Shown in pieces: positions 2,496 to 56,299 of a DNA stretch of 64,000 nucleotides (positions are counted from its first letter, which is position 1; each line of letters opens with the position of its first letter). Source of the stretch: Xestospongia bergquistia. Taxonomy: Eukaryota > Porifera > Demospongiae > Haplosclerida > Petrosiidae. The notes beneath the pieces were generated by a model. That model saw nothing but the letters and a program-made list of their open reading frames with translations, searched no databases and had not been told where the DNA came from. The DNA is taken from assembly GCA_963965975.1 (NCBI GenBank), contig OZ014417.1:4941821-5005820 (forward strand), given 5' to 3'. A program made the translations under genes and the position numbers.

Positions 2496-2581
2496 GAGAA
2501 ATATCTTGATCCTTGATCCTGACATCCAGCAAAGCTATTGTAATAAAACACAAATTAAGACTATGCTATATTATGAATTAA

Positions 2582-20027: not shown

Positions 20028-20110
20028 CTCATTGAATTTTTAAGTCAAGGTAGATAAGGCTAAAGCTCATTGAATTTAAAGTCAAGGTAGATAGGGCTAA
20101 AGCTCATTGC
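20028..20110. repeat. 37-bp expansion inside array B (3 copies)
   Basis: The word 'ggctaaagctcattgaattt' plus 'aaagtcaaggtagata' is repeated in tandem. Further expansions of the same 37-bp word lie at 20395-20545 (about 4 copies), 24820-24905 (about 3), 25190-25380 (about 5) and 26815-26935 (about 3). The word is a normal single-copy part of other array-B units. Confidence 0.8.
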
Positions 20111-23100: not shown

Positions 23101-23427
23101 AAACCTTTACAAGCTCATTGAATTTAATGTCAAGCTAGATATACTAACACAAATGAAGTATTGATACTCTGACTCTATTTATTTGCCCATGGGCTGTAGT
23201 GAGGAACATTAGTGTCTCGGATTTACTGCAGGAAACACTGTCAAATGACTTAGGTGAATGGAATCCAGTTCATTCTTCTGTCTTGCTAAAAAGCCCTGCA
23301 GAATTAAAGTCGTGACTCATTGCTTGCTAAAAGGAAGTAATGCTGTCAAAGATTTCTAGTACAAACTATTACATGCTCATACTGATACAAAAGTAAAGAC
23401 AATGGGGTAAAATGGCTTGTACTAAAT

Positions 23428-23570
23428 TAGCCTTGTAGCCAAGCTTTCGCAATAGAAAAGAGCCTGGTAACTACTGTTTGCGTGTCATTGCGATGTCAAT
23501 AATTACGCGAATGCGCACGCAGTAATGACCAGGGTTTCTTTTCCATCGCAAAAGTCTGGGTACGAGGCTA
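23428..23570. mobile_element. 143-bp MITE with perfect 9-bp TSD
   Basis: It is nearly identical to the copy at 19651. It is flanked by gtactaaat at 23419-23427 and 23571-23579. Because other array-B units read 'ggcttgtactaaataaaa' without interruption, the empty site is visible in the array and fixes the duplication at 9 bp. Confidence 0.9.
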
Positions 23571-25378
23571 GTACTAAATAAAAACAATCATCCAATTTAT
23601 TGAGACTTGCTACAAAATATACCGGTTACTAAATTTCAAGAAGACTTACGATAGGTTAGTTAAGATACAAATGCACTAAAATTAAGGGCTAAAGCTCACT
23701 GAATTTAAAAGTCATGTTAGATATACTACAGCACATGGAGTACTGCTTCTCTGACTGTATTTGTTACTACTGTCTTTCCTTTTTGTTGTAACGAGGAATT
23801 TCATTGTCTTGGAATTACTGCAGAGAACACTGTCAAATGACTTCCCTCATGGAATACAGTTCCTTCTTCAGTTTTGATCCACAGCCCTGCAGAAGTAAAG
23901 TCCTTACACATTGATTGCTAAAAGCAATGCAGTCTAAGGTTTCTAGTACAAACCATTACAAGCTGATACTGGTACAAAAGTAGACAGAATAAGTTTAAAG
24001 TCAAGCTAGATATAATAACGCAAATGAAGTATTGAGACTTGACTGTATTTATTTACCCTTGTGCTGTAGCGAGGAACATTATTGTCTTGGATTTACTGCA
24101 GAGAACACTGTCAAATGACTTTCCTGCATGGAATACAGTTCCTTCTTCTGTCTTGCTCCACAGCCCTGCAGAAGTAAAGTCCTGACACATTGATTGCTAA
24201 AATGAAATGAAGCAATGCAGTCTAAGATTTCTAGTACAAACCATTACAAGCTGATACTGGTACAAAAGTAGAGTTTAAAGTCAAGCTAGATATACTAACG
24301 CACATGAAGTATTGACACTTGACTGTATTTATTTACCCTTGGGCTGTAGCGAGGAATATTATTGTCTTGGATTTACTGCAGAGAACACTGTCAAATGACT
24401 TCCCTGTATGGAATACAGTTCCCTCTTCTGTCTTGCTCCACAGCCCTGCAGAAGTAAAGTCCTGACACATTGATTGCTAAAATGAAATGAAGCAATGCAG
24501 TCTAAGGTTTCTAGTACAAACCATTACAAGCTGATACTGGTACAAAAGTACACACAATAGTTTAAAGTCAAGCTAGATATACTAACAAACATGAAGTATT
24601 GACACTTGACTGTATTTATTTACCCTTGGGCTGTACCGAGGAACATTATTGTCTCGGATTTATTGCAGAGAACACTGTCAAATGATTTGGCTGAATGAAA
24701 TCCAGTTCCTTCTTCTGTCTTGCTAAATAAAGTCATGATTCATTGCTTGCTAAAACGAAGTAATGCTGTCTAGCACAAACTATTACAAGCTGATACTACA
24801 AAAGCACTAAACTAAGGGCTAAAGCTCATTGAATTTTTAAGTCAAGGTAGATAAGGCTAAATCTCATTGAATTGAAAGTCAAGGTAGATAGGGCTAAAGC
24901 TCATTATTGATACTGATACAAAAGTAGACACAATAGTTTAAACTCAAGCTAGAGATACTAACGCACATGAAGTATTGACACTTGACTGTATTTATTTACC
25001 CTTGGTCTGTACCAAGGAACATTATTGTCTCGGATTTACTGCAGAGAACACTGTCGAATGATTTGGCTGAATGAAATCCAGTTTCTTCTTCTGTCTTGCT
25101 AAATAAAGTCATGATTCATTGCTTGCTAAAACGAAGTAATGCTGTCTAGCACAAACTATTACAAGCTGATACTACAAAAGCACTAAACTAAGGGCTAAAG
25201 CTCATTGAATTTAAAGTCAAGGTAGACAAGACTAAAGCTCATTGATTTTTAAGTCAAGGTAGATAGGGATAAAGCTCATTGAATTTAAAGTCAAGGTAGA
25301 GAGGGATAAAGCGCATTGAATTTAAAGTCAAGGTAGATAGGGCTAAAGCTCATTGAATTTAAAGTGAAGGTAGATATA

Positions 25379-28075
25379 CTAATGCACATGAAGTATTGAC
25401 ACTATTTATTTGCCTTAGGGCTGTAGCGAGGAACGTTATTTACTGCAGAACACTGTTAAATGACTTGGCAAAACGGAATTCAGTTCCTTCTCCTTTCTTG
25501 CTAAATGGCCCTGCAGAAGTAATGTCCTAAGTTTTCTAGTATAAACCATTACAAAGTCATACTCATACAAAAGTAAACACTATGGGGGTAAAAAGGCTTG
25601 TACTAAATAAAAACGCTCGACTAATTTTATTGAGACTCGCTATATATATTTTACAAAATATACCAGTTACTGAAGTCTTTATATTACGGACTAGTGAGAT
25701 ATTATATTTCAAAAAGACTTACGATAAGCTTAGTTAAGACAACAAAACACTAAAACTAAGGGTTAAAGCTCACTGAATTTAAAAGTCATATACTACAGCA
25801 CATGGAGTACTGCTTCTCTGACCGTGTTTGTTACTACTGTCTTTCCCTTTCTTGTAGCGAGGAATTGCCTTCATGGAATACAGTTCCTTCTTCTGTCTTG
25901 CTCCACAGCCCTGTAGAAGTGAAGTCCTAACACATTAGTTGCTAAAATGAAGTAATGCATTTCTAATGATTTGTAGTACAACCATTACAAACACATTCAC
26001 GTATGATATAGGACAATACTCAAGACTCAAAAAAATCTCCACAATATGCACATTTTATAATACATAGTGCATAGATAACTTACGGGACAGGAAGTCTACA
26101 CATGATAATCATATTCATAAGTATACACAATACAACAACCAACCAATAATAATGCAGCACAAGCTGATACTGACACAAATGTAGAGACAGTGAGGGTAAA
26201 TAGCGCTGCAAAAAAAATTGTGACAAACCATTACAACCTGATACTGATACAAAAGTAGACACAATAGATTTAAATGGGCTACATTGTACTAAATATACTG
26301 GAAAAGGACTAGTCAGATATGTTTCCAAAAGACTTACGACAGGCTTAGTTCAGATAACAGATGCGCTAAACCTAGGGGCTAAAGATCACTGAATATACTA
26401 ACACACATGGAACTGCATGGAATACAGTTCCTTCTTATGTCTTGTTAAACAGCCCTGCAGAAATAAAGTCCTGACACATTCATTGCTAAAATGAAGTAAT
26501 GCAGTCCATGACTTCTAGTACAAACCATTACAAGCTGATACTGGTACAAAAGTAGACACAATAGTTTAAAGTCAAGCTAGATATACTAACAAACATGAAG
26601 TATTGACACTTGACAGTATTTATTTACCCTTGGGCTGTACCGAGGAACATTATTGTCTCGGATTTACTGCAGAGAACACTGTCAAATGATTTGGCTGAAT
26701 GAAATCCAGTTCCTTCTTCTGTCTTGCTAAATAAAGTCATGATTCATTGCTTGCTAAAACGAAGTAATGCTGTCTAGCACAAACTATTACAAACTGATAC
26801 TACAAAAGCACTAAACTAAGGGCTAAAGCTCATTGAATTTAAAGTCAAGGTAGACAAGACTAAAGCTCATTGAATTTTAAGTCAAGGTAGATAGGGCTAA
26901 AGCTCATTGAATTTTAAGTCAAGGTAGATATACTAATGCACATGAAGTATTGACACTATTTATTTGCCTTAGGGCTGTAGCGAGGAACGTTATTTACTGC
27001 AGAACACTGTTAAATGACTTGGCAAAACGGAATTCAGTTCCTTCTTTCTTGCTAAATGGCCCTGCAGAAGTAATGTCCTAAGTTTTCTAGTATAAACCAT
27101 TACAAAGTCATACTCATACAAAAGTAAACACTATGGGGGTAAAAAGGCTTGTACTAAATAAAAACGCTCGACTAATTTTATTGAGACTCGCTATATATAT
27201 TGTACAAAATATACCAGTTACTGAAGTCTTTATATTACGGACTAGTGAGATATTATATTTCAAAAAGACTTACGATAAGCTTAGTTAAGATAACAAAACA
27301 CTAAAACTAAGGGCTAAAGCTCACTGAATTTAAAAGTCATATATTACAGCACATGGAGTACTGCTTCTCTGACCGTATTTGTTACTACTGTCTTTCCCTT
27401 TCTTGTAGCGAGGAATTGCCTTCATGGAATACAGTTCCTTCTTCTGTCTTGCTCCACAGCCCTGTAGAAGTGAAGTCCTAACACATTAGTTGCTAAAATG
27501 AAGTAATGCATTTCTAATGATTTGTAGTACAACCATTACAAACACATTCACGTATGATATAGGACAATACTCAAGACTCAAAAAAATCTCCACAATATGC
27601 ACATTTTATAATACATAGTGCATAGATAACTTACGGGACAGGAAGTCTACACATGATAATCATATTCATAAGTATACACAATACAACAACCAACCAATAA
27701 TAATGCAGCACAAGCTGATACTGACACAAACGTAGAGACAGTGAGGGTAAATAGCGCTGCAAAAAAATTGTGACAAACCATTACAAGCTGATACTGATAC
27801 AAAAGTAGACACAATAGATTTAAATGGGCTACATTGTACTAAATATACTGGAAAAGGACTAGTCAGATATGTTTCCAAATGACTTACGACAGGCTTAGTT
27901 CAGATAACAGATGTGCTAAACCTAGGGGCTAAAGATCACTGAATATACTAACACACATGGAACTGCATGGAATACAGTTCCTTCTTATGTCTTGTTAAAC
28001 AGCCCTGCAGAAATAAAGTCCTGACACATTGATTGCTAAAATGAAGTAATGCAGTCCATGATTTCTAGTACAAAC
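25379..28075. repeat. recent ~1.55-kb tandem duplication in array B
   Basis: 25379-26530 and 26933-28075 are nearly identical. Both read 'ggcaaaacggaattcagttc', 'ctcgctatatatatt', the 170-bp sub-block, 'cgctgcaaaaaaa(a)ttgtgac' and 'atggaactgcatggaatac'. The few differences are single bases and a four-base deletion near 27040. Confidence 0.85.
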
Positions 28076-29059
28076 CATTACAAGCTGATACTGATACCAC
28101 AGCAGACACAATGGTGGTAAAAAGCCTGTAAAAACACGTGACTGGCTACATTATACTAAATATACTGGTTACCAAAGTGTATATGTTATATAGACAAGGA
28201 CAGGTAAGATATTATGTTTTAAAATGACTTATTACAGGCTTAGTTAAGGTAATAAATGCACTAAAACTAAGAGCTAAATCTCACTGAATTTAAACGTCAA
28301 GCTAGATATACTAACATACATGAGTACTGCTACTCTGACCATATTTGTTACTACTGTCTTACCCTTTTGTTGCAGTGAGGAACATCATTATCAAACAAGC
28401 TGATACTGATACAAAAGTAGACGCAATGGGGGTAAATAGGCTTGTAGTAAATAAAACACGTGACTAATATTATTCAGACTTGCTACATTGTGCTAAATAT
28501 ACTGATTACTAAAGTCTATATATTACAGAGAAAAGACTAGTGAGATATTTTTGACTTATCACAGGGTTAGTTCAGATAACAGATGCACTAAAAGTACTGA
28601 ATTTAAAACTTAAGTTGGGCAAGCTAGATATACACACACACGTGGAGTACTGCTACTCTGACCGTATTTGACTACTGTCTTTCCCTTTTGTTGTAGCGAG
28701 GAACATCACTGTCAAATGACTCGTCTGTATGGAATCCAGTTCCTTCTTCTGTCTTGCTAAACAGCCCTGCAGAAGTAAAGTCGAGACACACGGTTGCTAA
28801 AATGAAGGAATGGCATCTAAATTTATTAATTTCTAGTACAAATTTGGTGCCAGTAGTCTTGCTAAACAGCCCTGCAGAAGTAAAATGCTGACACACTGTA
28901 GAAATGTGGCACCACTATTGTGAACTGAGAATGTTCAGTTGATGATGGATATTGCGCCATGATAATAACAACTATATAACTCCGTATATCTTATCTATAG
29001 TACACAATGAACATTGTCTGTCTGAATATACGTTTATTAATCAGTTGTAGAGAACTAGG

Positions 29060-29394: not shown

Positions 29395-30834
29395 ATAATA
29401 ATATTATTAAAGGTGCATATTGTCACATTTGAATGCAGCTTAACAACAAATTATACTATTATGAAATCGCGAATGCCAAGGTTTAGTTGGAGTCCATATA
29501 AATGGAGACAATGATTTAACGGACATATTAGACAAGATGAGAAAAAGAGTGAGTGAGCTAGAGTGAGTGCATGAGAGAGGAGGAAAGAGCTTTAGTATGT
29601 AAGATACTGTCTTATAAAGTCTCAGTATATTGAATTAAAGAATACTTAATAGAGCAGTTTACAACAAATACTATCGAATCAGCCACAGTCCCATTCTAGT
29701 AAACAACAACAGCACAACGTCTTGTAATGGTGGCTTTCAAAAAGCCATTTAGTAGAGCAGAGCAGGAGTAATTTTGCTGCAATCGCAGTTAACATTAAGG
29801 GTGTCTGTTGTTTCCTTTACAGGAAACACATTAAAAGAGGTAAAACAAATTTTAATTTCTCTGATATAAAGTACATTATATGCGTTATCTAATATAAAGT
29901 GCTGATGATGAGTGATTTGGTATGGTAGTCCACCTCCCAGTAGGTCAAGGCACTGCAATTCTTTGGGTACTTGTTCTTCCTAGCATAGTTGAGTACAATC
30001 AAACTTGATAAAATTCATGAGAGGAGTAGTTTCGAAAACCAGCTACAGTACAAAGATATGCAAGTGCATATATTACAAAAAATAATGGATTATTAGGGCA
30101 ATAAGCTGATAATAAAACACACACCAGAAGTGTCCAAGAAAAAAAGCACAAGAAGATGCCAGTAACAAAGATCTTATAATATCCTGTCCACACATTAACT
30201 ATCTGTCTAGATAATGAGAACAAAGAAAACTCATAAAATATTCATTATTTAAAAGTAGTATTACTGGCACTATTTGATGTCTGAGTTTGCTGTACATAGT
30301 ATATCCAAAATATCTTTATAATATAATGTAGTGATACATTAGAACATCCCAGACAATTACAAAAATAGATGACTGTGAAGACAAATGACAGAAATGACTA
30401 AAGAATCTTGACTTATGACTTGTTATTTCTCAAATGTTATACTTGAAAACAGAGAAACCTAAAAATATAAAATTCTATTTATCAACTCTTATAATTCCCA
30501 ATTGTAACAATGACCTGATATGAACATAACAGACTATACACTTTAGATATATGAAGTACTTCACAGCAATACTTGGGATAAATCTGATATTCAACAGTAT
30601 AATTACCACTAGTTATATGTACAGATTGCAATTGCAAATTTATTTTTACTGAAAATAAGCTTAACCTATTGCTTTTACTAATTCTAGCTATATCACCTTC
30701 ACTTTCGTAATACATTAGTAATTAATAGTATTATATGTAGATATTTTTCATAACTATGCAACCTGTATACACTGTATTTAAAATTAAATCAATTTGCAAT
30801 GAATTATCTTTTACAGTTTTGTTACATAATTTAT
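29395..30834. other. AT-rich region without recognised gene
   Basis: Only short frames lacking family motifs (for example 29749-29958 and 30482-30715 on the minus strand). A GAGA/GTGAGT-rich stretch lies near 29535-29590. No transposon ends recognised. Confidence 0.5.
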
Positions 30835-30842
30835 ATGTATAG

Positions 30843-31324
30843 CAGGCATGGGGTCAAATACATTGAATAGTATTTAAATACAAATACAAATACTCTCAAA
30901 ACATGAAATACAATATACAAATACAAATACTTCTAGCAGGAATGTATTTCAAATACAAATACAAATACTTTGAAAAGTATTTAAATGCTTTCCAAATACT
31001 TCTTTATACTATCCCAGCAGGAAAATCCCCATTATTTGCTTTACATATAATGAACTAATCATTACAAATTATTGATAATCTCTTCAAATGTTTTGTCAGT
31101 TAGGCAACATTGATCAGGGCAGGAAAAACTTTTCCTACTATGCTGAATAGTCTTTCCACAGAAACAAACAATTTAAAAAGGAGTATTTAAAGATTTCATG
31201 AAGTATTTCAAATACAAATACAAATACTTCCTGTTTCAAAATTTCAAAATACAAATACAAATACTCAAAAAAAGTATTTAAATACAGCTAAATACAAATA
31301 CTCATATATTTGACCCCAAGCCTG
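30843..31324. mobile_element. hAT-type MITE with perfect 8-bp TSD
   Basis: It begins caggcatggggtcaaata and ends tatttgaccccaagcctg (16 of 18 inverted). The flank atgtatag occurs at 30835-30842 and 31325-31332. An 8-bp duplication and CAGG..TGGGG termini are typical of the hAT superfamily. The 482-bp interior is filled with repeats of 'aaatacaaatac' and 'gtatttaaata' in both orientations, the usual sub-terminal repeat pattern. It has no transposase frame. Confidence 0.93.
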
Positions 31325-33905: not shown

Positions 33906-33913
33906 CTTGGCTG

Positions 33914-34774
33914 CATAGGCGTATTTAGACCCGGGCCAGCACGGGCTTTGCCCGGGTAAACTTGGCCAGACCAAAATTAATTACATTTTTTCAAAGATAA
34001 AGTTATTGCTTTTATTTACACAAAAAGATTAACCACTAACACATGCCATGTATGACTTCACAGTTAGCAATTAGCACCTCTTTTATGAACTGTGATCTGA
34101 GTCAGACTGAGTGCCAATATGAAAAGACTCTTGTAGACTTGGGCCTCTAGTAATAGTAGCAGTAGTGGTGTAGGCTGGTCCATCAAAAAAATCATACAAT
34201 GTTCCAGAGAGTGAGGAATATGACAGTGGAAATGACAGCAATGAAGAAATTGACAGAGAAATTAGAGGATTAAATGATCAAGATGGTTAGCTGTAAATTT
34301 AATAACGAAGTAGTTTGAAATTATTCTTTCTACTTTTCTTGTACTCTGCAGACACAGATGGTGATGGTATTGATCTACAGATTCATAGGGTATAGGTAAT
34401 GATATATCCACAATACCAGGAGTTAACGTAAATGTACATGTTGGTGATGTAGCATCAACCTCAAGCCGAGAGTAGATGGTCCTGCAGACATAGCTAAAGA
34501 TAAATCCGAAAAGCCTATTCAACCAGTCGGCATTGATTTTCCACTTTCTGTTTTAGTCGATTGTTTAAACCTAGATGGTACCAAGCAACAGTAGGTTTTC
34601 TAGTATAGCAATCCAAATGATGCATTCATTCAGAACGGGTTCAGGGACAGGAAACATACCTTGTTTTTGGTTGAGTAAAAGTTTAAAATTGTTAATAACT
34701 ATTAATAACTACTAATTCATAATGATGAATAATTAATAAGCCCTAGTACTTTTAGAGACCTAGATACGCCTATG
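33914..34774 (+). mobile_element. internally deleted hAT element, perfect 8-bp TSD
   Basis: It starts cataggcgtatttag and ends ctagatacgcctatg, so the TIR is CATAGGCGTAT(T/C)TAG. The target duplication cttggctg is at 33906-33913 and 34775-34782. A GC-rich inverted word follows the left TIR (cccgggccagcacgggctttgcccggg region, 33930-33957). At 861 bp it is far shorter than an autonomous hAT element and keeps only the start of the transposase. Confidence 0.92.
34190..34675 (+). pseudogene. hAT transposase N-terminal remnant (zf-TTF type)
   Basis: Pieces on the plus strand match the beginning of TTF-zinc-finger hAT transposases: an acidic VPESEEYDSGNDSNEEI (34201-34260), GPADIAKDKSEKPIQPVG (34480-34533, compare 'PaDIA...kPxQP'), then RWYQ (34577) and DAFIQNGFRDRKHT (34619-34660, compare 'F..GFxxWKHA'). 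Stops and frame changes separate them, and the cysteines of the finger and the whole DDE/dimerisation region are gone. It lies wholly inside the 33914-34774 element. Confidence 0.6.
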
Positions 34775-34782
34775 CTTGGCTG

Positions 34783-35408
34783 ATTTTGTACTGTCCAGGA
34801 GTTTGTCCCTGCTCACCCACTCTATTGACATTCCTCAGGTACTAGAAAACCATGCCTTATTAAATATTTGTGGTTTCAAGTGTTTTGATAGGGTGGAGCT
34901 GCAGTTGCTGTATACGGAAAACTTACAACAACATTGTATATAGGGTGGAGCTGCAGATACGGAAAACTTACAACATTGTGTGTAGACAGAACATTCTTTC
35001 GATTTAGCTAATATATTATAAATGATAGCTAATTAAATCCTTTCTAAACAGTTTGTTTACTAATTTTTTTAAAAATCACTTTTCATATTTTCTTTAAAAA
35101 AAATTTTTTAGCATAACCTTGTTAGTATAAACAATAATCAAGAAACTAGCACTGCAGTTACTGGTCTCCAGGAACGTTTCTCCTTAATTTCTTACACTAG
35201 ATTGTTTTGCATACAAATTTAAAAAACATTAGGTTATTATAAACATTTACATGAATTTTATTACCGAGTTAAAAATAGTGACAAGCTTCACATTCTTATT
35301 TGCAAATATAAAATCATAATGACTTGTAATATACAAGGTGACAACATCATTCAATGTGACTTCTTAATATACATCATTACAATGGTTCACAAAAAATGGA
35401 CTCAATAG
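34783..35408. other. no recognised gene; short duplication
   Basis: A word of about 36 bp ('agggtggagctgcag' ... 'atacggaaaacttacaac') is present twice (34896-34932 and 34941-34976). The rest is AT-rich. Confidence 0.5.
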
Positions 35409-35700
35409 CCAGCAATAAGGGGAAATGTACTAAAATGAACAAATGGCCTTGTTGCTGGGTGGGAAAGACACACCCATATCAAAACAACTGACGATAGTAT
35501 TTGTACTAACCTGACACACTTGAATATCATATCGTCGTTCACATTCAAAGTCTCAAAAGCCAGCAATAAGAGGAAATGCACTAAAAAATGAACAAATGGC
35601 CTTATTGCTGGGTGGGAAAGACACACCCATATCAAAACAACTGACGATAGTATTTGTACTAACCTGACACACTTGAATATCATATCGTCGTTCACATTCA
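35409..35700. repeat. ~150-bp tandem duplication
   Basis: Two adjacent near-identical copies (35409-35559 and 35560-35700), each with 'tgctgggtgggaaagacaca' and 'cttgaatatcatatcgtcgt'. On the minus strand each copy has a short frame ending in a donor-like CAG|gttagtac (one copy reads CYECERRYDIQVCQ), so an exon may have been duplicated. No family recognised. Confidence 0.8.
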
Positions 35701-37334
35701 TAGCACTGGAGTTGTGCTTTAGACCTAACAAGGCTTTTGAAAATCAAACCAGCAACCTATGTAGGATAAACTGTGTCCTCCAGTTATTGCATGTAACACC
35801 CCTGGCAAAACATCTGTGTGGAAATTAGAAACCCCAAACTTTGTTGAAGCATTGATGAATTATTTTAATAGGTATACCACAAGCAGAATTAACACCAGTA
35901 CAGAAAGAATACTTAAACATTGAGTGTGCAGTAGAAGATAACGTTGTTAATTCACAGATGATAACAGTACTCATTTATTTCTAGGCAATATGATATAATA
36001 TATGTAATTTAATAGACATTGATGACATCAACACACATAGATTTTGGTGGCCAGAATGATGTAATAGAAGGAATAGAATTACTTGATGATCCCTTACTGT
36101 TCAATCAATGGAGGTAATAGAGATTTAAGAAATATACAACTGTAATCAAGTAAGATGTTTGTCTAATTAACAGAAACTGTTTAATATGTATACAATCACT
36201 GAGAAACAATGTCCTATCTGCAAGGAGGTCTGTTATAGTGTGTGTCGTTTATATTAACAATTAGATAGATGTTGGAGAAGAGTACACAAAAATACTACTA
36301 ATTTCAGTAGTGGACATAAAGAAGACCGCATATCAGAATTGTGGTGGAAGAAAATATCTTGTTAATCAGATGAATCATCCCATCATTTGTAAGCTGTTTA
36401 TTGTGGACAATAATGTCATAATAAAGCCTACAATGCATACCTTGCAATGAACGTCTAATGACTGTTAGCACAAAAGTTGCTTCATTACCTGATGTACAGA
36501 TAGTAGGCATTTCTCGAAACACACATTCAAGTAAAAAATCAAACAAGCCATTGTTGCTACAAGAGTAAGATGCAGGCAATGTAATCCATCTGATATTATA
36601 TCTGATAGGTCAATTACAATTGAAAGTACTACCAGACATGATTACACCTCAAGAACGTACAGATTACTTGGAATAGCTGTTAGTACTGATGACAATGAAA
36701 GTATCCTTTTAATCTTGCTTCCATTTAGGTTCATCATGGACATCCATCCAACATCTGTAGATACAGGTCACTGTAAGTTATTATACAGCTATAAGATACC
36801 TACATTAAAACAAACACAATAGACACTGCATTAGTGAAAACACCAGGTGGAGAATGGATTGAATATGATGACAATAATGTAAATACTAACTACGATTACA
36901 ACAGAAATATAGATTACATTTCAGTGAGTAAAGATAATGAAAACAATGCATCATTATGATTACCTCTTAGAGAAATGTATGTCTAGCTATATACAAGTCT
37001 GATGAGTCTGAGGTTAGCATGCAATTATTGTATATCACATAATACATATTGTAATTCATTTTGCTAACTATAGACTGTATTAAAAGTGATTGATTGTCCA
37101 CCAATTTTAACATGGAGCGAAGTCAGTCTGTTGTTAAAATGTGCATACTTTACTGTTATAATATTTCTATCAGAGTCCACTTGTTGTTGTTAATGAAGAC
37201 AAGGAAATAGTAAGTGCATTGCTAGCAAAGAATTTATTCTATATATTTGAATAAAGGACTGGAAAGAGATTAAGGCACCATACAATACTTTACAGCCAGG
37301 AGTGTGGCTAACTGCAAAAGCAAACAGTGTATAT

Positions 37335-37358
37335 ATTATGTATAAATATATATATATC

Positions 37359-37415
<57 letters not shown>
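37335..37415. repeat. (TA)n microsatellite in an intron
   Basis: A nearly pure TA run of about 50 bp or more within the 37329-37446 intron of the USP/ULP-like gene. This makes it the longest intron in that part of the gene. Confidence 0.9.
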
Positions 37416-37416
<1 letters not shown>

Positions 37417-39089
37417 CAGTATATATAATAGTATATACTTGTGTAGGTGATAATGAATTACTTAATATTGTTAGCAAAAGATGTAAGTCAAATCATTTTA
37501 CATGCACGTCACAGAAATTGTTAAAACAAGAGAAACATAGCCATTGTCAACTCCACATTCCTTCCATTATTAAGAGCAAGAGGCTTTAGTGGTGTTATAA
37601 AATATGTAAGGCTTTTACAATTTTAACAAAGTATGAAAAGTAATAAATCATAGGGCAAAAATCTGTTAGAGAAAGACATGATCATATTTCCTATTCATTG
37701 TCCACAACATTGGATTCTCATCGTCAGTGCCTTAATCAACACAATATATGTTTGGGATACATTACATAGGTTGTTGATGTAAATGATAAGGTCATATATG
37801 AAGTTGATTCATATCATAATAGTCGGCCTCATTTAATAAATAGCATATGGTAAGAAATTATTACATAAGATAACATTTAAAAAAAACATAGCCTATATTT
37901 GTGTACATTGTCAAAGTTTAAACTATCCGTTAGTAAGTGGAGATACTATCATTCCAAAGTACATTACACATCCGCAAATGTACTTTTATGGTACTTATAT
38001 ACACACAGATGTGCAACAGTGGACACATGCCATGACATCTACAGAAATGTATATATATGTAAGGTATGTGAAAAGCATAGCTAAGATTTTAAAATTTACA
38101 TTAGTCAATTAAACTTAACAGTATGTGGCAAGTTATCTCAGATTATCATATGATGAGGATGATTTTGAGGTAGAGACTGTTTATTACATGTTGACATTAT
38201 TTTTAAAAAATAGCTGACAACTTACAAGAAATGGATCCTTAAAATTAGGTATGCTGTTCATGAAATGAGTACACTCATTATACATTAATACATTGCCTGT
38301 TAATATCTAGCTGTTCAGTAGCAGAAGTGCATATGGAAAATGTTCCACCAGATTATATAGAAACCATCAAAACTTATGTCAACTCAGGTACATAATAAAT
38401 TACATAAATACTGAGTGATTATAATTTCAATCTTTGGTAACTTTAGGCTGGGATGGAGACAATGAAGTTAATTATATAATGGATCGTAAGCATACTGTTC
38501 TATAAATTCTATGTTGTGATTGATATTTAGTAGAAGATTTAGAGGACAATGACATACTACTTCCATCATTTACATCTGAACCAGTAATAGATAAGGATGA
38601 TATATTTTGTACTGAACAAAAATGGGGCAAGGAATTTTACCTTAAAAGTTATCCAAACTTCAGACGTGACAAATCAGATCAGTATGTTTTTCATATTATG
38701 TGAATACTATAGATAATATCCTATCATTGTATCAGTGACTGCATATTTACAAGAGGGTTCATTAGAACAACAATCAAAGCAAATGAAGTGTGTTTACAAA
38801 TATCATATAAAATTCATGTTTTTATGATACAAAATAGCACACAATCAGACAACTATTAACCCTTTGACGCACGCGGATGCAAAATTGCATCCACCCGGGC
38901 GGTTCGAACTCGGGCGCGGATGCAAATTTGCATCCACCACTATGAACACGTCTCAAGCAACTTATTCTTTTGTAAAACGCGAACTAAACTTGTCAAAGCA
39001 TCATTACTGTATTCTATCTAACTGGCCATTGCTCAATCTAACAGAAGAAACGAGCGCTTACCCCCTCATCCTAAGTTTTTTAACGAGTA

Positions 39090-40412
39090 CATGGATGGTA
39101 TTCCTAGCGAGGATTAGGATGATGATTTGATGGCTACGTGGACAATCCTTTAATCCTCAATGATGGAGAGGCAGCAGAACTATTCCATTAGACATAATCC
39201 TGTACCAGATGATACTATTTTGTAAGCATTAGCCCCACCTAATTAAGATAATGAGCATTCCATCAGCCACAATATTGCTGATACTGATGCAGGCAACACC
39301 AGCTCCCTCCATTCCATTCCATTCGTCTATCCCATGCACTCACTTCCTACTAAGCCTACACCTACTTTAGTTCAAAAGTTATCAGAAACTACACCTATCA
39401 GTGCTGTTACTCCTGAGCAACTACTTATAGGTCCTATCAATCCTTGTCATCAACAACGAGACCAAACACCTCCTACTTGTAAACCTGATAGGTACTTATA
39501 TAATACATGGTTTTTACACAGAAATTGTAAATAATAATAATCTTTTATAGTACAAGCATTTACTGCTGTACCAGGCATCACTGATAACATCATGTGCACA
39601 CTATTGGCGTTTTTTCAATCAGTTCTTTACTTCTGAAGTGAAAGATCTCATTTATACTGCGACAGTCTGATTTGATGAACAAGAGCTTGCATCATCTGAG
39701 GAATACCTGGATATGGATCGTCATGCATGTGGTAATGAGTGGAGAAGAAACCCTATGGACAGAAGTGAAGTCAATCCTTTCTTGGCAATCATTATAACAA
39801 TGGGTGTTATTGGTTATCCAACTTTGAGGTAATTATATAAAAAGGCTAATTTAATTGTATTCATCTCTGGTAATTAATTCATTGTCTGGTAATAATGTTC
39901 ATTGTATTTTAATAATATTATAAATCATCACCAATGAATACTGTTATCAAAGAATATAAATATGAAAGCTTTATTATAAAGTACAGCTTTATTAGCTAAT
40001 TAAGCGACTATGAATTTTATTAGCTCTTTTCTAAAAAAAACTTTAGGCATTTGTAATTAGAAATACATATAGTACAAATAATTAGATCTTACTGGAGTAC
40101 GAAGTGGCCATTTTACAATGAGTCACTCACAGCAATTATGTCTGTTAGAAGATTCGAGTTATTAATGAAGTACTTTCATTTAAATGATTCAACCAAAATG
40201 CGAGAACGAGGTAGCACCAACTACGATAAGTTGTACAAGATTCATCCTCTACCTGACCTTATCATTACAGCGTTTAAATGAGCCTACACACCAGAAAAAA
40301 TATATCAGTGGACGAGAGTATTATAGGATTCATAGGGACACTTAGTTGGATTTAATATATGGCAAAAAGGCCTACTAAGGGGGGGATCAAAGTCTGGGTA
40401 GCTGCACGATGT
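39090..40412 (+). pseudogene. piggyBac transposase, broken
   Basis: This transposase belongs to the 38860-41703 element and to a different subfamily from the one at 6913. A low-complexity Ser/Thr/Pro N-terminus (39270-39490) is followed by FFNQFFTSEVKDLIYTA (39611), VNPFLAIIITMGVIGYP (39772), SYWSTKWPFYNES (about 40092), VRRFELLMKYFHLNDST, YDKLYKIHPLPDL and the first catalytic aspartate in SVDESIIGF (about 40307), then KRPTKGGIKVWVAARC (to 40412). It carries several stops (for example TGA at 39669-39671 and in 40279-40285) and one intron-like gap (39830-40085). The second and third catalytic aspartates are absent; repeats replace the remainder. Confidence 0.85.
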
Positions 40413-40619
40413 AAGATATGCAAAACATCTTTACATGTACATTAATGTTTTAAGATTTAAATACTTAAATTATCTACAATCAACCCTTACTCAATATTCA
40501 GACTTCATTTATTTCTTCATGTACTATATACTTATATATATATTACCTACTGATAATAAGAAACCACAAACACAGACACACACACAAAATTATCTACTGA
40601 TAACAAGAAACCACAAACA

Positions 40620-41105
40620 CACACCTTACATTATACATACACTAGCAAACAATTGCCACTCTTTGCCTGACTATATGTTGTATCTATATGTACATGCTTC
40701 TCTTCCTGGCTGTGTGTGCATGTTGTGTATGTACACACGCACACACACATATACTTACATTATACATACACTAGCAAACAGTTAGCCACACATTGCCTGA
40801 CTGAATGTTGTGTGTATATGTAGATGCTTCTCTCTTGGCTGTGTGTATGTGCACACACACATACACTTACATTATACATATACTAGCAAACAGTTATAAT
40901 ATATTGCCACACATTGCTTGACGGTATGTTATGTCTATATGTAGATGCTTCTCTTTTAGCTGTGTGTATATGCACACACACATACACTTACATTATACAT
41001 ACACTAGCAAACAGTTATAATATATTGCCACACTTTGCCTGACTGTATGTTGTGTCTATACATACATGCTTCTCTTCCTGCCTGTGTCTTTGTGTGTGTA
41101 CGTTA
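40620..41105. repeat. ~120-bp tandem repeat, four copies
   Basis: Each copy carries 'cttacattatacatacacta', 'gcaaacagtta', 'gcctgactgtatgttgtgtc' and 'atgcttctct', and ends in CA/TG runs. It lies inside the piggyBac element where the transposase 3' half should be. The open frame at 40435-40785 is a product of this low-complexity block. Confidence 0.85.
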
Positions 41106-41898
41106 GTGGTGTGTCTTTATAGAAGATACTATACTCACCTAGTTATAAATCATCCAAAAGGAAGATTAGAAGACTCATTTTAAGGTTATAATACTATAAG
41201 TGAAGAAACAGCAGGTAGAATACTACAAGAAACAAATACTTACTTCAGTCAATTGCTTTCTTCCCCAATTGAAAGCTCCACCCAAATAAATTGACAGGAT
41301 GTGATTGTGTCATTATGAGATGTGTCCAAGAAAACCTTCGTTGTGCACTTAGTTTACATCGTTTGGCTAAGAACAAAGTGTCAACAGACTCACCACACAA
41401 CAAATAAATCAACTGTATGTTCATAAAAATGATCACTCGAGCTCTACTGCTTCAGAACTGGCTTCGAAATGTAAGCGTTTTTTGTCGTAGTATACTACAG
41501 AGTTTAGCTTTCATTTTATGGCTTTTCTTGTTGTTAAGGTAACAACAACAGCCTACCTACACCCTCACACTAGCTACTAACCTGAAAGCGTCGTCTTGTT
41601 GCTACAGTAAGCTTTTAAAGCGTTGCTATTGTTGAAAAACATTATTCAAAAAGTAGCCGCCCATGGGCGTGATTACAATTAATTTGCCCCGCCCGTCAAA
41701 GGGTTAAATGGAGAATGTTATAGTGACTTTGTTAAAGTAAAGTATGTGGATGATGATTGGCCAATTGACCTTGATGATATGGTGAGAATATCAGTCTAAC
41801 AAACAATTACTTCATACAGTTTCATGTAGGTAATGGAAATTAATTACTATTTACTTGCTTTGGCGAGTGATTGTCTAAAAAACCTGTTTTCTATTTAA

Positions 41899-42769
41899 AT
41901 GATTTTATGAAATCAATTGTCTGGCCACAGGTAATTCCAGATAATAAGTCGTAACCTATAACCTCATTGAATTATACTTACAGATTCTCACTTTGTCAAT
42001 AACGGAGAAATTTCACTTTTCACATGAAAAGGCAGTTAAGTGCCTCGTACAAAGACAGCTTCCCTTATCCAAACACAAAGTTCTTGATTTTAAGTTATTA
42101 ACTTGAACTCTATTGTAGTGATAGAAATGACATATTGCTGTATTTTAATATGAATCTGATAGTCATATTGATCAAATTTGTACTGAAATGCTTTGAAAGA
42201 AAGTCAGAAATTTGAATATTAATTGGAAACCCTGAAGTTATATTGGACTTACAAACCAATCTTAAGCCAATAAGAGTCTCATCCTACAACATAAGCACTT
42301 GATGCACAATCAATAATGCTTTGAGCAGAGTATACTACACTAATGTTTGCTATTGCTGCCTAGGCATCAATACAAAAACACTGACCTTCAGAGATCTTTC
42401 AGTGCAGTCTCATATCCAAAATAATACAAATTTCCTTGTAGCATTGTCATGTGGTGATGAGACATTAATTAGGCATTAATTAGGCTTCTGCAGCAGCACA
42501 TACCGCGGTTTTAAGATCCACCTACAGGAATGTGCTGCTAACTTCAACAGAGTTGCTCACCCTCTCCCAAGTATTATACGAGACTATCTTCAATTTCCTT
42601 TAATAAGAACAATACAGTCAAGAATATTAAAACGACCACATGAGCTGAGTTCAACTATAATAATTATTATAGTCTCGCGTTGCCAGCCCCTCCCTCTCAG
42701 AATTTTAATTTGTGGTTGGATCAGCCAAATACACTAGGCCAACAGTATGGTTACTTCGGAAGACTCAAT
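41899..42769. other. no intact gene; possible retroelement remnants
   Basis: No clear frame. 'attaattaggc' is duplicated at 42464-42484. A fragment near 42490-42600 is compatible with degraded retroelement coding sequence. 'agtctcgcgttgccagcccc' at 42671 looks like the start of another dispersed repeat. Confidence 0.35.
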
Positions 42770-47110: not shown

Positions 47111-50100
47111 GCCTTTAGAATGTTTAGCCTATTGAGTGAAGCTTATAAAGTAAACTGCTCAGTCTAAAGGACTTAATAGGACTAACTAAGCAAACTGCTA
47201 TTAACAGTTTAGTAAGTTTGTTTGCATTACGCTCTAAAGTCTTTAAGATAAAGACTTTAGAAAGTTTAGACTATTGAGTGAATTTTATAAAGTAAACTCC
47301 TTAGTGTAAAGGACTTTATGGCACTAACTAAATAAACAGCTATTAACAGTTTAGTAAGTTAGTTTGCATTAACGCTCTAAAGTCTTTAAGTTAAAGACTT
47401 TAGAAGGTTTAGACTATTGAGAGAAGTTTATAAAGTAAACTGCTCAGTCTAAAGGACTTTATGGGACCAAACAAATAAACAGCTATTAACAGTTTAGTAA
47501 GTTAGTTTGCATTAACGCTCTAAAGTCTTTAAGGTAAAGACTTTAGAAGGTTTAGACTATTGAGAGAAGTTTATAAAGTAAACTGCTCAATCTAAAGGAC
47601 TTTATGACACTAACTAAATAAAAAGCTATTAACAGTTTATTAAGTTAGTTTGCATTAACGCTCTAAAGTCCTTAAGTTAAAGACTTTAGAAGGTTTAGAC
47701 TATTGAGAGTAGATCATAAAGTAAACTGCTCAGTCTAAAGGACTTTATGGCACTAACTAAATAAACAGCTATTAACAGTTTAGTAAGTTAGTTTGCATTA
47801 ACGCTCTAAAGTCTTTAAGTCAAAGACTTTAGAAGGTTTAGACTAATGAGAGAATTTTAAAAAGTAAACTTCTCAGTCTAAAGGACTTTATGGCACTAAC
47901 TAAATAAACAGCTATTAGCAGTTTAGTAAGTTAGTTTGCATTAACGCTCTAATGTCTTTAAGTTAAAGACTTTAGAAGGTTTAGAGTAATGAGAGAAGAT
48001 TATGAAGTAAACTGCTGAGTCTAAAGGACTTTATGGCACTAACTAAATCAACAGCTATTAACAGTTTAGTAAGTCAGTTTGCATTAACGCTCTAAAGTCT
48101 TTAAGTTAAAGAATTTATAATGTTTAGACTATTGAGAGAAGTTTATAAAGTAAACTGCTCAGTCTAAAGGACTTTATGGCACTAACTAAATAAACAGATA
48201 TTAACAGTTTAGTAAGTTAGTTTGCATTAACGCTCTAAAGTCTTTAAATTAAAGACTTTAGAAGGTTTCGACTATTGAGAGAAGTTTATAAAGTAAACTG
48301 CTCAGCCTAAAGGACTTTATGGCACTAACTAAATAAACAGCTATTAACAGTTTATTAAGTTAGTTTGCATTAACGCTCTAAAGTCTTTAAGTTAAAGACT
48401 TTAGAAGGTTAGACTAATGAGAGAAGTTTATAATGTAAACTGTGCAGTCTAAAGGACTTTATGGCACTAACTAAATCAACAGCTATTAACAGTTTAGTAA
48501 GTTAGTTTGCATTAACGTTCTAAAGTCTTTAAGTTAAAGACTTTAGAAGGTTTAGACTATTGAGAGAAGTTTATAAACTAAACTGCTCAGTCTAAAGGAC
48601 TTTGTGGCACTAACGAAATAAACAGCTATTAACAGTTTAGTAAGTTAGTTTGCATTAATGCTCTAAAGTCTTTAAGTTAAAGACTTTAGAAGGTTTAGAC
48701 TAATGAGAGAAGTTTATAAAGTAAACTGCTCAGTCTAAAGGACTTTGTTGCAGTAACTAAATAAACAGCTATTAACAGTTTAGTAAGTTAGTTTGCATTA
48801 ACGCTCTAAAGTCTTTAAGTTAAAGACTTTAGAAGGTTTAGACTATTCAGAGAAGTTTATAAGGTAAACTGCTCAGTCTAAAGGACTTTATGGCACGAAC
48901 TAAATAAAGAGATATTAACAGTTTAGTAAGTTAGTCTGCATTAATGCTCTAAAGTCTTTAAGTTAAAGACTGTAGAAGGTTTAGACTAATGAGAGAAGTT
49001 TATAAAGTAAACTGCTCAGTCTAAAGGACTTTATTTCACTAACTAAATAAACAGCTATTAACAGTTTAGTAAGTTTGTTTGCATTAACGCTCTAAAGTCT
49101 TTAAGTCAAAAACTTTAGAAGGGTTAGAGTAATGAGAGAAGTTTATAAAGTAAACTGCTCAGTCTAAAGGACTTTAGGGCACGAATTAAATAAACAGCTA
49201 TTAACAGTTTAGTAAGTTAGTTTGCATTAATGCTCTAAAGTCTTTAAGTCAAAGACTTTAGAAGAGGTAGACTAATGAGAGAAGTTTATAAAGTAAACTG
49301 CTAAGTCTAAAGGACTTTATGGCACTAACTAAACAAACAGCTATTAACAGTTTAGTAAGTTAGTTTGCATTAACGCTCTAAAGGCTTTAAGTTAAAGACT
49401 TTAGAAGGTTTAGACTAATGAAAGAAGTTTATACAGTAAACTGCTCACTCTAAAGGAATTTATGGCACTAACTAAATAAACAGCTATTAACACTTTAGTA
49501 AGTTAGTTTGCATTAACGCTCTAAAGTCTTTAAGTTAAAGACTTTAGAAGGTTTAGACTAATGAGAGAAGTTTATAAAGTAAACTGCTCAGTGTAAAGGA
49601 CTTTATGGCACTAACTAAATAAACAGCTTAGTAAGTTAGTTTGCATTAACGTTTTAAAGTCTTTAAGTTAAACACTTTAGAAGGTTTAGACTATTTAGAG
49701 AAGTATATAAAATAAACTGCTCAGTCTAAAGGACTTTATGGCACAAACTAAATAAACAGCTATTAACAGTTCAGTAAGTTTGTTTGCATGAACGCTCTAA
49801 AGTCTTTAAGTTAAAGACTTTAGAATGTTTAGGCCATTGAGAGAAGTTTATAAAGTAAACTGCTCAGTCTAAAGGACTTTATGGCTCTAACTAAATAAAC
49901 AGCTATTAACAGTTGATTAAGTTAGTTTGCATTAACGCTCTAAAGTCTTTAAGTTAAAGACTTTAGAAGGTTTAGACTATTGTCAGAAGTTTAGAAAGTA
50001 AACTGCTCAGTCTAAAGGACATTATGGCACTAACTAAATAAGCAGCTATTAACAGTTTAGTAAGTTAGTTTGCATTAACGCTCTGAAGTCTTTAAGTTAA

Positions 50101-53100
50101 AGATTTTAGAAGGTTTAGACTATTGAGAGAAGTATATAAAATATGCTGCTCAGTCTAAAGGACTTTATGGCACTAACTAAATAAGCAGCTATTAACAGTT
50201 TAGTAAGTTAGTTTGCATTAACGCTCTAAAGTCTTTAAGTTGAAGACTTTAGAAGATTTAGACTATTGAGAGAAGTATATAAAATAAACTGCTCAGTCTA
50301 AAGGACTTTATGGCACTAACTAAATAAACAGCTATTAACAGTTTAGTAAGTTAGTTTGCATTAACGCTCTAAAGTCTTTAACTTAAAGACTTTAGAAGGT
50401 TTAGACCTTTGAGAGATTTTTTAAAAGTAAACTGCTCAGTCTAAAGGACTTTATGACACTACGTAAATAAACAGCTTTTCACGGTTTAGTAAGTAAGTTT
50501 GCATTAACGCTCTAAAGTCTTAAAAATAAAGACTTTAGAAGGTTTAGACTATTGAGAGATGTTTATAATGTAAACTGCTCAGTCTAAAGGACTTTATTGC
50601 ACTAACTAAATAAAGAGCTATTCACACTTTAGTAAGTTAGTTTGCATTAACGCTCTAAAGTCTTTAAGAGAAAGACTTTAGAAGTTTTATGCTATTGAGG
50701 TAATGTAAACTGCTCAGTCTAAAGGACTTTATGGCACTAACTAAATAAACAGCTATTAACAGTTTAGTAAGTTAGTTTACATTAACGCTCTAAAGTCTTT
50801 AAGTTAAAGACTTTAGAAGATTTAGACTATTGAGAGAAGTTTATAAAATAAACTGCTCAGTCTAAAGGACTTTATGGCACTAACTAAATAAACAGCTATT
50901 AACAGTTTTGTAAGTTAGTTTGCATTAACGCTCTAAAGTCTGTAAGTTAAAGACTCTAGAAGGTTTAGACTATTGACAGAAGTGTATGAAATAAACTGCT
51001 CAGTCCAAAGGACTTTATGGCACTAACTAAATAAACAGCTATTAACAGTTTAGTAAGTTTGTTTGCATTAACGCTCTAAAGTCTTTAAGTTAAAGACTTT
51101 AGAAGGTTTAGACTATTGAGAGAAGTTTATAAAGTAAACTGCTAATTCTAAAGGACTTTATGGCACTAACTAAATAGACAGCTATTAACACTTTAGTAAG
51201 TTAGTTTGCATTAACGCTCTAAAGTCTTTAGGTTAAAGACTTTAGACGGTTTAGACGATTGAGAGAAGTTTATAAAGTAAACTGCTCAGTGTAAAGGACT
51301 TTATGGCACTAACTAAATAAACAGCTTAGTAAGTTAGTTTGCATTAACGTTCTAAAGTCTTTAAGTTAAAGACTTTAGAAGGTTTAGACTATTTAGAGAA
51401 GTATATAAAATAAACTGCTCAGTCTAAAGGACTATATGGCACAAACTAAATAAACAGCTATTAACAGTTCAGTAAGTTTGTTTGCATTAACGCTCTAAAG
51501 TCTTTAAGTTAAAGACTTTAGAATGTTTAGGCCATTGAGAGAAGTTTATAAAGTAAACTGCTCAGTCTAAAGGACTTTATGGCACTAACTAAATAAACAG
51601 CTATTAACAGTTGAGTAAGTTAGTTTGCATTAACGCTCTAAAGTCTTTAAGTTAAAGACTTTAGAAGGTTTAGACTATTGTGAGAAGTTTAGAAAGTAAA
51701 CTGCTCAGTCTAAAGGACATTATGGCACTAACTAAATAAGCAGCTATTAACAGTTTAGTAAGTTAGTTTGCATTAACGCTCTGAAGTCTTTAAGTTAAAG
51801 ATTTTAGAAGGTTTAGACTATTGAGAGAAGTATATAAAATACACTGCTCAGTCTAAAGGACTTTATGGCACTAACTAAATAAGCAGCTATTAACAGTTTA
51901 GTAAGTTAGTTTGCATTAACGTTCTAAAGTCTTTAAGTTAAAGACTTTAGAAGATTTAGACTATTGAGAGAAGTATATAAAATAAACTGCTCAGTCTAAA
52001 GGACTTTATAGCATTAACTAAATAAACAGCTATTAACAGTTTAGTAAGTTAGTTTGCATTAACGCTCTAAAGTCTTTAAGTTAAAGACTTTAGAAGGTTT
52101 AGACCATTGAGAGAAGTCTATAAAGTAAACTGCTCAGTCTAAAGGACTTTATGGCACTAACTAAATAAACAGCTATTAACAGTTTAGTAAGTTAGTTTGC
52201 ATTAACGCTCTAAAGTCTTTAAGTTAAAGACTTTAGAAGGTTTAGACTATTGAGAGAAGTTTATAAAGTAAACTGCTCAGTCTAAAGAACTTTATCGCAC
52301 TAACTAAATAAACAGTTATTAACAGTTTAGTAAGTTAGTTTGCATTAACGCTCTAAAGTCTTTAAGTTAAAGACTTTAGAAGGTTTAGACTATTGAGAGC
52401 AGGATATAAAATAAACTGCTCAGTCTAAAGGATTTTATGGCGCTAACTAAATAAACAGCAATTAACAGTTCAGTAAGTTAGTTTGCTTTAACGCTCTAAA
52501 GTCTTTAAGTTAAAGACTTTAGAAGGTTTAGACCATTGAGAGAAGTTTATAAAGTAAACTGCTCAGTCTAAAGGACTTTATGGCACTAACTAAATAAACA
52601 GCTATTAACAGTTTAGTAAGTTAGTTTGCATTAAAGCTCTAAAGTCTTTAAGTTAAAGACTTTAGAAGGTTAGACTATTGAGAGAAGTTTATAAAGTAAA
52701 CTGCTCAGTCTAAAGGACTTTATGGCACTAACTAAATAAACAGCTATTAACAGTTTAGTAAGTTAGTTTGCATTAACGCTCTAAAGTCTTTAAGTTAAAG
52801 ACCTTTCAAGGTTTAGACTATTGAGAGAAGTTTATAAAGTAAACTGCTCAGTCTAAAGGACTTTATGGCACTAACTAAATAAGCAGCTATTAACAGTTAA
52901 GTAAGTTATTTTGCATTAACGCTCTAAAGTCTTTAAGTTAAAGACTTTAGAAGGTTTAGACTATTGAGAGAAGTTTATAAAGTAAACTGCTTATTCTAAA
53001 GGACTTTATGGCACTAACTAAATAAACAGCTATTAACAGTTTAGTAAGTTAGTTTACATTAATGCTCTAAAGTCTTTAAGTTAAAGACTTCAGAAGATTT

Positions 53101-54807
53101 AGACTATTGAGGGAGTTTATAAAATAAACTGCTCAGTCTAAAGGACTTTATGGCACTAACTAAATGAGTAGCTATTAGCAGTTTTGTAAGTTAGTTTGCA
53201 TTAACGCTCTAAAGTCTCTAAGTTAAAGACTTTAGAATGTTTAGACTATTGACAGAAGTGTATGAAATAAACTGCTCAGTCTAAAGGACTTTATGGCACT
53301 AATTAAATAAACAGCTATTAACAGTTTAGTAAGTTAGTTTGCAATAACGCTCTAAAGTCTTCAAGTTAAAGACTTTAGAAGGTTTAGACCATTGAGAGAA
53401 GTTTATAAAGTAAACTGCTCAGTCTAAAGGACTTTATGGCACTAACTAAATAAACAGCTATTACCAGTTTAGTAAGTTAGTTTGCATTAACGCTCTAAAG
53501 TCTTTAAGTTAAAGACTTTAGAAGGTTTAGACTATTGAGAGAAGTTTATAAAGTAAACTGCTCAGTCTAAAGGACTTTATGGCACTAACTAAATAAACAG
53601 CTATTAACAGTTTAGTAAGTTTGTTTGCATTAATGCTCTAAAGTCTTTAAGTTAAAGACATTAGAAGGTTTAGACTATTGAGAGAACTTTATAAAGTAAA
53701 CTGCTCAGTCTAAAGGACTTTATGGCACTAACTAAATAAACAGCTATTAACAGTTTAGTAAGTTAGTTTGCATTAACGCTCTAAAGTCTTTAAGTTAAAG
53801 ACCTTTGAAGGTTTAGACTATTGAGAGAAGTTTATAAAGTAAACTGCTCAGTCTAAAGGACTTTATGGCACTAACTAAATAAGCAGCTATTAACAGTTAA
53901 GTAAGTTATTTTGCATTAACGCTCTAAAGTCTTTAAGTTAAAGACTTTAGAAGGTTTAGGCTATTGAGAAAAGTTTATAGAGTAAACTGCTAAATCTGAA
54001 GGACTTTATGGCACAAACTAAATAAACAGCTTAGTAAGTTAGTTTGCATTAACGTTCTAAAGTCTTTAAGTTAAAGACTTTAGAAGGTTTAGACTATTGA
54101 GAGAAGTATATAAAATAAACTGCTCAGTCTAAAGGACTTTATGGTACTAACTAAATAAACAACTATTAACAGTTCAGTAAGTTTGTTTGCATTAATGCTC
54201 TAAAGTCTTTAAGTTAAAGGCTTTAGAATGTTTAGGCCATTGAGAGAAGTTTATACAGGAAACTGCTCAGTCTAAAGGACTTTATGGCACTTACTAAATA
54301 AACAGCTATTAACAGCTTAGTAAGTTAGTTTGCATTAAGGCTGTTAAGTCTTTAAGTTAAAGACTTTAGAAAGTTTAGACTATTGAGTTAAGTTAGTTTG
54401 CATTAACGCTCTAAAGTCTTTAAGTTAAAGACTTTAGAAGGTTTAGACTATTGAGAGAAGTTTTTAAAGTAAACTGCTCAGTCTAAAGGACTTTATGGCA
54501 CTAACTAAATTAGCCGCTATTAACAGTTAATTAAGTTATTTTGCATTAACTCTCTAAAGTCTTTAGGTTAAAGACTTTAGAAGGTTTAGACTGTTGAGAG
54601 AAGTATATAAAATAAACTGCTCAGTCTAAAGGACTTTATGGCACTAATTAAATAAGCAGCTATTAACAGTTTAGTAAGTTAGTTTGCATTAACGCTCTAA
54701 AGTCTTTAAGTTAAAGACTTTAGAAGGTTTAGAATATTGAGAGAAGCATTTAAAATAAACTGCTCAGTCTAAAGGACTTTACGGCCCTAACTAAATAAAC
54801 AGCTATT

Positions 54808-55138
54808 AACAGTTCAGTAAGTTAGTTTTCATTAACGCTCGAAAGTCTTTAAGTTAAAGACTTTAGAAGGTTTAGACTATTGAGACAAGGATATAAAATG
54901 AACTGCTCAGTCTAAAGGACTTTATGGCACTAACTAAATAAACAGCTATTAACAGTTTAGTAAGTTAGTTTGCATTAACGCTCTAAAGTCTTTAAGTTAA
55001 AGACTTTAGAAGGTTTAGACTATTGAGAGAAGTGTATAAAGTAAACTGCTCGGTCTAAAGGAATTTATGGCACTAACTAAATAAGCAACTATTAACAGTT
55101 AAGTAAGTTAGTTTGCATTAACGCTCTAAAGTCTTTAA
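54808..55138. repeat. satellite block duplicated at 58347-58678 (empty site)
   Basis: 54808-55138 and 58347-58678 are nearly identical ('gttttcattaacgctcgaaa', 'acaaggatataaaatgaact', 'gctcggtctaaaggaattta'). The sequence after the fold-back (57107 on) continues the match at 58679 on. After removing the element and one TTAA the offset is 1,572 bp, i.e. eleven 143-bp monomers. Confidence 0.9.
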
Positions 55139-55328
55139 AGGGGGGGGGACATGCCAAAATTCAAAAATACTTTTTTTGCATAAATGAAATCTTTGACATG
55201 TCCAATTCACCCTAAAAATATTTCAATAATTTTTAAAAATTGTTATCACTGTTAAAAGCAAGCTTCTTTTCAAAGCGCTTTCAAGGCTTCTTCTGCAATT
55301 GCAACTTTTTTCCTGTTAGAGTGGGTCT

Positions 55329-55348
55329 CCCTTGTGACGTCACAAGGG
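55329..55348. promoter_or_regulatory. 20-bp palindrome with CRE core TGACGTCA
   Basis: CCCTTGTGACGTCACAAGGG is a perfect palindrome containing the full cAMP-response-element core. It lies 22 bp upstream of the ATG at 55371. The same 20 bp sit at 56893-56912 in the other arm, 22 bp upstream of the opposite ATG. Promoter function is inference from position and motif. Confidence 0.5.
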
Positions 55349-55370
55349 GAGCAATGCTAGGTGCAAAGTA

Positions 55371-56087: not shown

Positions 56088-56299
56088 TCAATGACATTAA
56101 TATATAGTTAATGACTCAAGAGTAATGATATTTATTATTTCCATAACAAAATAAATAATAACATTATTGAACTAATGTTGGAGAAGGCTGAAATGACTTC
56201 TGTGGCTCTTGATAGCAGAAGCTTTGTCAGGTTTATCATAAGTACTGCTTAAAGGCCCAGGAACATTTGAGTTTGAAGAGTGAGTGCCTCCATCCATGT

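Follow-up and report, generated by a model that had tools for sequence, protein, structure and literature searches.

A degenerate, probably Mutator-superfamily transposon with USP- and ULP1-type protease sequence in the sponge Xestospongia bergquistia

Within a 64,000-nucleotide stretch of the sponge Xestospongia bergquistia (contig OZ014417.1, positions 4,941,821 to 5,005,820; hereafter the window), sequence for a ubiquitin-specific protease (USP, family C19) is followed on the same strand by sequence for a ULP1/SENP-type protease (family C48). We find that this is real protein-coding sequence, yet not an ordinary host gene. It most probably belongs to a dead, internally deleted DNA transposon of the Mutator superfamily (a Mutator-like element, MULE, of Rehavkus-like type), the fuller copies of which carry a PHD finger, a transposase, USP and ULP1 on one strand between short terminal inverted repeats (TIRs). 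A sequence-only reading of the window had offered two possibilities, a dual-protease gene that might be a pseudoenzyme, or an accessory gene of a large transposon. The latter was right in kind, as the protease stretch lies inside an element bounded by TIRs and a target-site duplication (TSD), the fuller copies of which encode a transposase, but the element is not especially large: ~7.7 kb in the window, of which a nested piggyBac-like insert makes up 2.85 kb. Its parts are given below in window coordinates; copies elsewhere are denoted by contig (C) or by fetched locus (L).

34810-34818, no strand: left 9-bp TSD, TGCTCACCC, identical to 42554-42562, each adjoining a TIR end
34819-42553, + strand: TIR element (deleted Mutator-like element), nested piggyBac-like insert included; TIR ACTCTRTTGAAGTTAGCAGCACATTCCT, the left arm 9 nt shorter
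34819-34835, + strand: left TIR, internally shortened; the left arm is longer in L043, L044, L059 and the C2 stretch
35401-35703, no strand: subterminal minisatellite with a 153-bp unit, present twice (~8 units in C12, ~6-7 in C4/L044)
35703/35704, no strand: deletion junction; ~4.3 kb (PHD finger and transposase) lost relative to C2
35704-36910, + strand: USP (C19) exons, several frame-broken; Cys box 35760, QNDV 36052, CPIC 36207, CIPCN 36434, RCRQCN 36568, GHY 36763, TPGGEW 36823
37180-38020, + strand: ULP1/SENP (C48) exons through DVQQ; DCG box absent
38020/38021, no strand: deletion junction; ~985 bp lost relative to C10; C2 and C12 hold the DCG box at this point
38021-38855, + strand: exon-like stretch in the element's 3' part, without a Pfam match
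38856-41707, no strand: piggyBac-like insert bordered by TTAA; not present in L019, L021, L043, L044 and L059
41708-42525, + strand: remainder of the element's 3' part
42526-42553, - strand: right TIR, 28 bp
42554-42562, no strand: right TSD, a perfect 9/9 repeat of the left

Excerpts of Dupeyron et al. (2019; PMC6446971) give MULE TSDs as 8 to 11 bp long, a range that includes the 9-of-9 repeat of the window element and the repeat flanking the C12 copy (L059; 7 of 9, judged by eye); the flanks of L044 showed no recognisable TSD. The same TIR ends are found on dispersed copies on contigs C2, C4, C10 and C12; those on C2, C10 and C12 also agree in order, with the transposase placed upstream. 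In the C12 copy the TIRs stand ~8.3 kb apart and enclose the transposase core, USP, and ULP1 with its DCG box, while the C2 copy, of which the left end alone was found, has the USP Cys box and, upstream of the transposase core, a PHD finger (PF00628, 33.1 bits). The C10 copy at L043 is one of a tandem pair, element copies lying ~7.4 kb apart in C10:3464421-3473420. The TSD, the PHD finger and the minisatellite suggest the Mutator/Rehavkus group. Near its left end in the window, at 33906-34782, lies a small TIR element with CATAGGCGTA ends and an 8-bp flanking repeat, CTTGGCTG.

The transposase of the fuller copies has WRKY-like and DDE parts. The nearest match of the transposase model is ISCth4, and no MULE structure stands among the best 50 structure matches listed; plain Foldseek returned no significant match for the transposase, Pfam transposase models returned no match, and its alignment against viral contigs revealed no relative. 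Twenty-three homologues of the transposase were recovered. Stops or frame changes occur in the transposase regions of both C2 and C12, and none of the copies read is intact throughout.

Both protease halves pass the curated Pfam cut-offs when the hand-joined exons of the window copy are used in profile searches, UCH (PF00443) with 30.7 bits against a cut-off of 23.9 and Peptidase_C48 (PF02902) with 33.0 against 20.7, scores that are biased upward by exon joins picked by eye. The motifs on which the sequence-only reading had relied were likewise recovered at their sites (RCRQCN 36568, GHY 36763, TALVKTPGGEW 36823, QPGVW 37290, CPQHW 37699, EVDSY 37800 and DVQQ 38008). Scores from C2 and C12 are higher. 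Nine USP exons of C2, joined exactly as they stand in the sequence, form a stop-free frame of 255 codons (UCH 49.4 bits), and the Cys box (NLCWINCVLQLLH), which had been proposed as something to look for in other copies, is present as NLCWINCVLQ, together with the His box (TGHYTAL) and the acidic residue (EWIEYDDN); one ULP1 exon of this copy is frame-shifted. The C12 copy has an open phase-0 frame through six ULP1 exons, beginning with SPLVVV and ending with the VDSY exon, and its joined ULP1 reaches 57.2 bits for C48 with one frame step ahead of the DCG exon. An unguided six-frame scan also placed a sister copy, C10:3461879, above the C48 cut-off (25.9 bits; one of six places listed). The corresponding UCH scan listed 117 matches, none in any copy of the USP-ULP1 element family, and the UCH assignment thus relies on the eye-joined exons. 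Among solved sequences, the nearest to the ULP1 query (a mix of window and C2 letters) is SENP2 (3.1e-11), and the nearest to the USP query (hand-joined, mostly C2) are 6tbm_Q, a ubiquitin carboxyl-terminal hydrolase that we take to be SAGA Ubp8 (1.1e-4), and USP2 (6.7e-4). Protein-database searches with the USP-ULP1 query gave no match at the set thresholds. The close spacing of the parts makes it likely that USP and ULP1, and the transposase with them, were encoded in one polypeptide.

The window copy itself is dead, having lost the transposase and the DCG-box region by deletion, with broken USP frames, a shortened left TIR and the piggyBac-like insert. The exons had been thought to join without phase conflict. 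Alignment with five sister copies shows otherwise: compared with four or more of them, the window lineage differs in exon length at 36091, at 36311 and, where a splice acceptor lies, at 36433, and it carries an insertion of 4 bases at 36741, within the range originally joined. With these four changes the gene is broken, and the chain is not phase-consistent. Its USP motifs are retained, but in broken frame. The Cys box reported as missing is present at 35760 (SNLCRINCVLQLLHVTPLAKHL), just 5' of that range. Nor was DCG replaced: the catalytic Cys of ULP1 was removed with ~985 bp at 38020/38021, as judged against the C10 copy, in which the DCG box is mutated, whereas C2 and C12 retain it there as CDCGVFVCM. 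The exons beyond 38020 that had been read as ULP1 belong instead to another stretch, towards the element's 3' end, that has no Pfam match at E <= 0.1. Pseudoenzyme by substitution is thus rejected for the window copy, since the DCG box is deleted, and the idea of a dual-protease gene finds no support there either, with frames broken and both catalytic motifs present in sister copies.

Five copies were compared in ten non-independent pairs over exons A-I of USP and three exons of ULP1 (K, N and O were dropped, as anchors failed, and M was used though frame-shifted in C2), with codons containing stops, one to three per pair, excluded. Divergence is 2.8-3.6% in exons and 1.7-3.5% in introns, dN/dS ranges from 0.23 to 0.90, and exons have fewer gap columns than introns in all ten pairs. 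The pattern agrees, as weak evidence, with dead copies of a once-coding source.

The window version is abundant. When a 3.2-kb query was compared with the genome and the best 40 of 141 candidates were scored, 28 of the 40 places matched almost all of it, with 96-100% identity. All 15 loci fetched (L007-L021) have the same left flank as the window insertion and therefore derive from one insertion. As far as each locus reaches, 12 of the 15 carry the piggyBac-like insert, while L019 and L021 have an empty site; these two, with L043, L044 and L059, are the insert-free paralogues that the sequence-only reading had suggested seeking. In L020 (the C5:5217139 copy) the gene ends exactly at the piggyBac site, position 4676, and a 143-bp satellite follows. 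Elsewhere in the window, open reading frames at 7089-8561 match DDE_Tnp_1_7 (93.8 and 142.9 bits) within one or more piggyBac-like stretches at 2578-8561, and the 38856-41707 insert ends in sequence that matches 2578-3020 in inverted orientation with 89% identity.

To place these copies, a marker (window 30500-30900) was used, with the best 40 of 222 candidates scored. The 40 scored markers, 99-100% identical, lie on C4, C5, C6, C7, C10, C11, C13, C14 and C15 in one cluster per contig, spaced 110-223 kb apart (median 142 kb over 31 spacings, between which unscored copies may intervene). The distance from element to marker is near-constant, 5.1-5.2 kb, in C7 and C5; on C4, C10, C13 and C14 the element stands, among the matches listed, beside one of four or five scored markers, being partial on C10 and 15.7 kb off on C14. 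The window ends in an array of ~118 copies of the 143-bp satellite (47113-64000). The window thus lies in a giant satellite-containing repeat unit, and the high copy number of its version arose because such units carried one insertion along. This macro-repeat homogenises between chromosomes, and may be centromeric. The array is broken at ~55.1-57.1 kb by a stretch found elsewhere in the genome (18 matches), and a second complex tandem and dispersed repeat, with units of ~280 bp and 37 bp, occupies 9000-28800.

The two proteases may be a recent passenger, captured in this one transposon family in Pack-MULE style and playing no role in its movement, an explanation that we hold possible, if on the unlikely side. 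It remains a serious rival because a transposase relative on C1, 56% identical, has no detectable USP or ULP1 in the 3.2 kb examined and because the databases yielded no homologue of the pair at the set thresholds; the weak constraint between copies fits it as well. Against it, the catalytic motifs of both proteases are kept in diverged copies, and the recurrence of Ulp1 in Mutator and Ginger1 elements, described in excerpts of Bao et al. (2010; PMC2836005), favours function. A host dual-protease gene, or adjacent host USP and SENP genes, captured by or adjoining a transposon and copied as segmental duplicates, would account for the multi-exon structure with short introns, and segmental macro-repeats are indeed the source of most window-version copies. 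We nonetheless consider this improbable, since the dispersed copies share TIR ends and, in C2, C10 and C12, an upstream transposase in the same order; moreover, one of the six C48 places listed is in the element family, and the other five, with ~1.5 kb on each side, have no USP match better than E 1.7. Least probable is that a dual protease or pseudoenzyme was domesticated and still serves in many copies, for although 28 near-full copies at 96-100% (among the best 40 of 141 candidates) could suggest it, the frame-breaking changes are common to the window copy and L019 (C4), and the near-identity agrees with homogenised macro-repeats and not with selection on a gene.

If the Mutator-superfamily element was once active as a whole, its transposase would have bound the TIRs and moved the element by cut-and-paste, inserting it with a 9-bp stagger. 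Acting on the transposase itself, or on chromatin and repair proteins where the element leaves or lands, the proteases might then have stripped off ubiquitin and SUMO; the transposase would thereby have escaped degradation, or silencing and repair would have been eased. Tentatively, and with rather more doubt than confidence, we suggest an animal Mutator lineage in which a single gene, possibly one polyprotein, unites a PHD chromatin reader and a DDE transposase with a SUMO protease and a deubiquitinase, the latter perhaps of the histone type, as a self-contained kit that erases both marks at the site of transposition. Were this true, the old guess that ubiquitin and SUMO editing aids eukaryotic transposition would become directly testable. 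The case also illustrates that a transposon-borne gene can mimic a puzzling host fusion gene, and that one dead insertion can spread over many chromosomes via giant satellite-containing repeats.

How does the element compare with known systems? Cellular USP2, 6tbm_Q and SENP1/2 have catalytic motifs and Pfam families in common with its proteases but are distant in sequence, and we know of no cellular gene in which USP and SENP stand in tandem. KDZ/Zisupton elements combine a KDZ transposase with an 8-bp TSD, against 9 bp in the window. Rehavkus elements, as excerpts of PMC6446971 describe them, have a 9-bp TSD, TIRs of 26-400 bp, a PHD finger and, ahead of the 3' TIR, a minisatellite. The sponge element resembles them in its 9-bp TSD, short TIR, minisatellite, DDE transposase and PHD finger, which the C2 copy carries upstream of the transposase core, but its 153-bp minisatellite is at the other end, close to the upstream (left) TIR. 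Those excerpts make no mention of USP or ULP1, and the likeness is one of features, not of sequence kinship; it points to a Mutator-superfamily, Rehavkus-like element, not to a proven Rehavkus member.

The remaining comparisons draw on excerpts of Bao et al. (2010; PMC2836005). Ginger1 transposases there carry Ulp1 or OTU, never both in one. Like the sponge element, Ginger1 is a transposase element with a protease, in one instance with a PHD finger; unlike it, Ginger1 has a 4-bp CCGG/CCGT TSD and a Gypsy-like integrase, and the 9-bp TSD rules out a Ginger1 identity. A Trichomonas vaginalis protein combines Peptidase C19 with Transposase_11, so that transposase and USP-type deubiquitinase occur together as in the sponge element, but with a different transposase domain and, in the excerpted text, no mention of Ulp1. 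Ulp1 in Mutator and Ginger elements is thus already published, as far as these excerpts extend, whereas we found no report of the USP and ULP1 pairing: no element with both was among the matches listed in searches of mostly open-access literature, with Repbase outside their scope. The same source proposes a role for the ubiquitin/SUMO pathway in transposition, an idea that two different deconjugating enzymes in one element strengthen and for which they offer a test system. Hydra, lancelet and plants have Mutator elements with an Ulp1: the C48 domain is common to them and the sponge element, and PHD fingers too have been aligned from Mutator transposases, but the excerpts mention no USP (C19) there, whereas the sponge element carries C19 and C48 in tandem.

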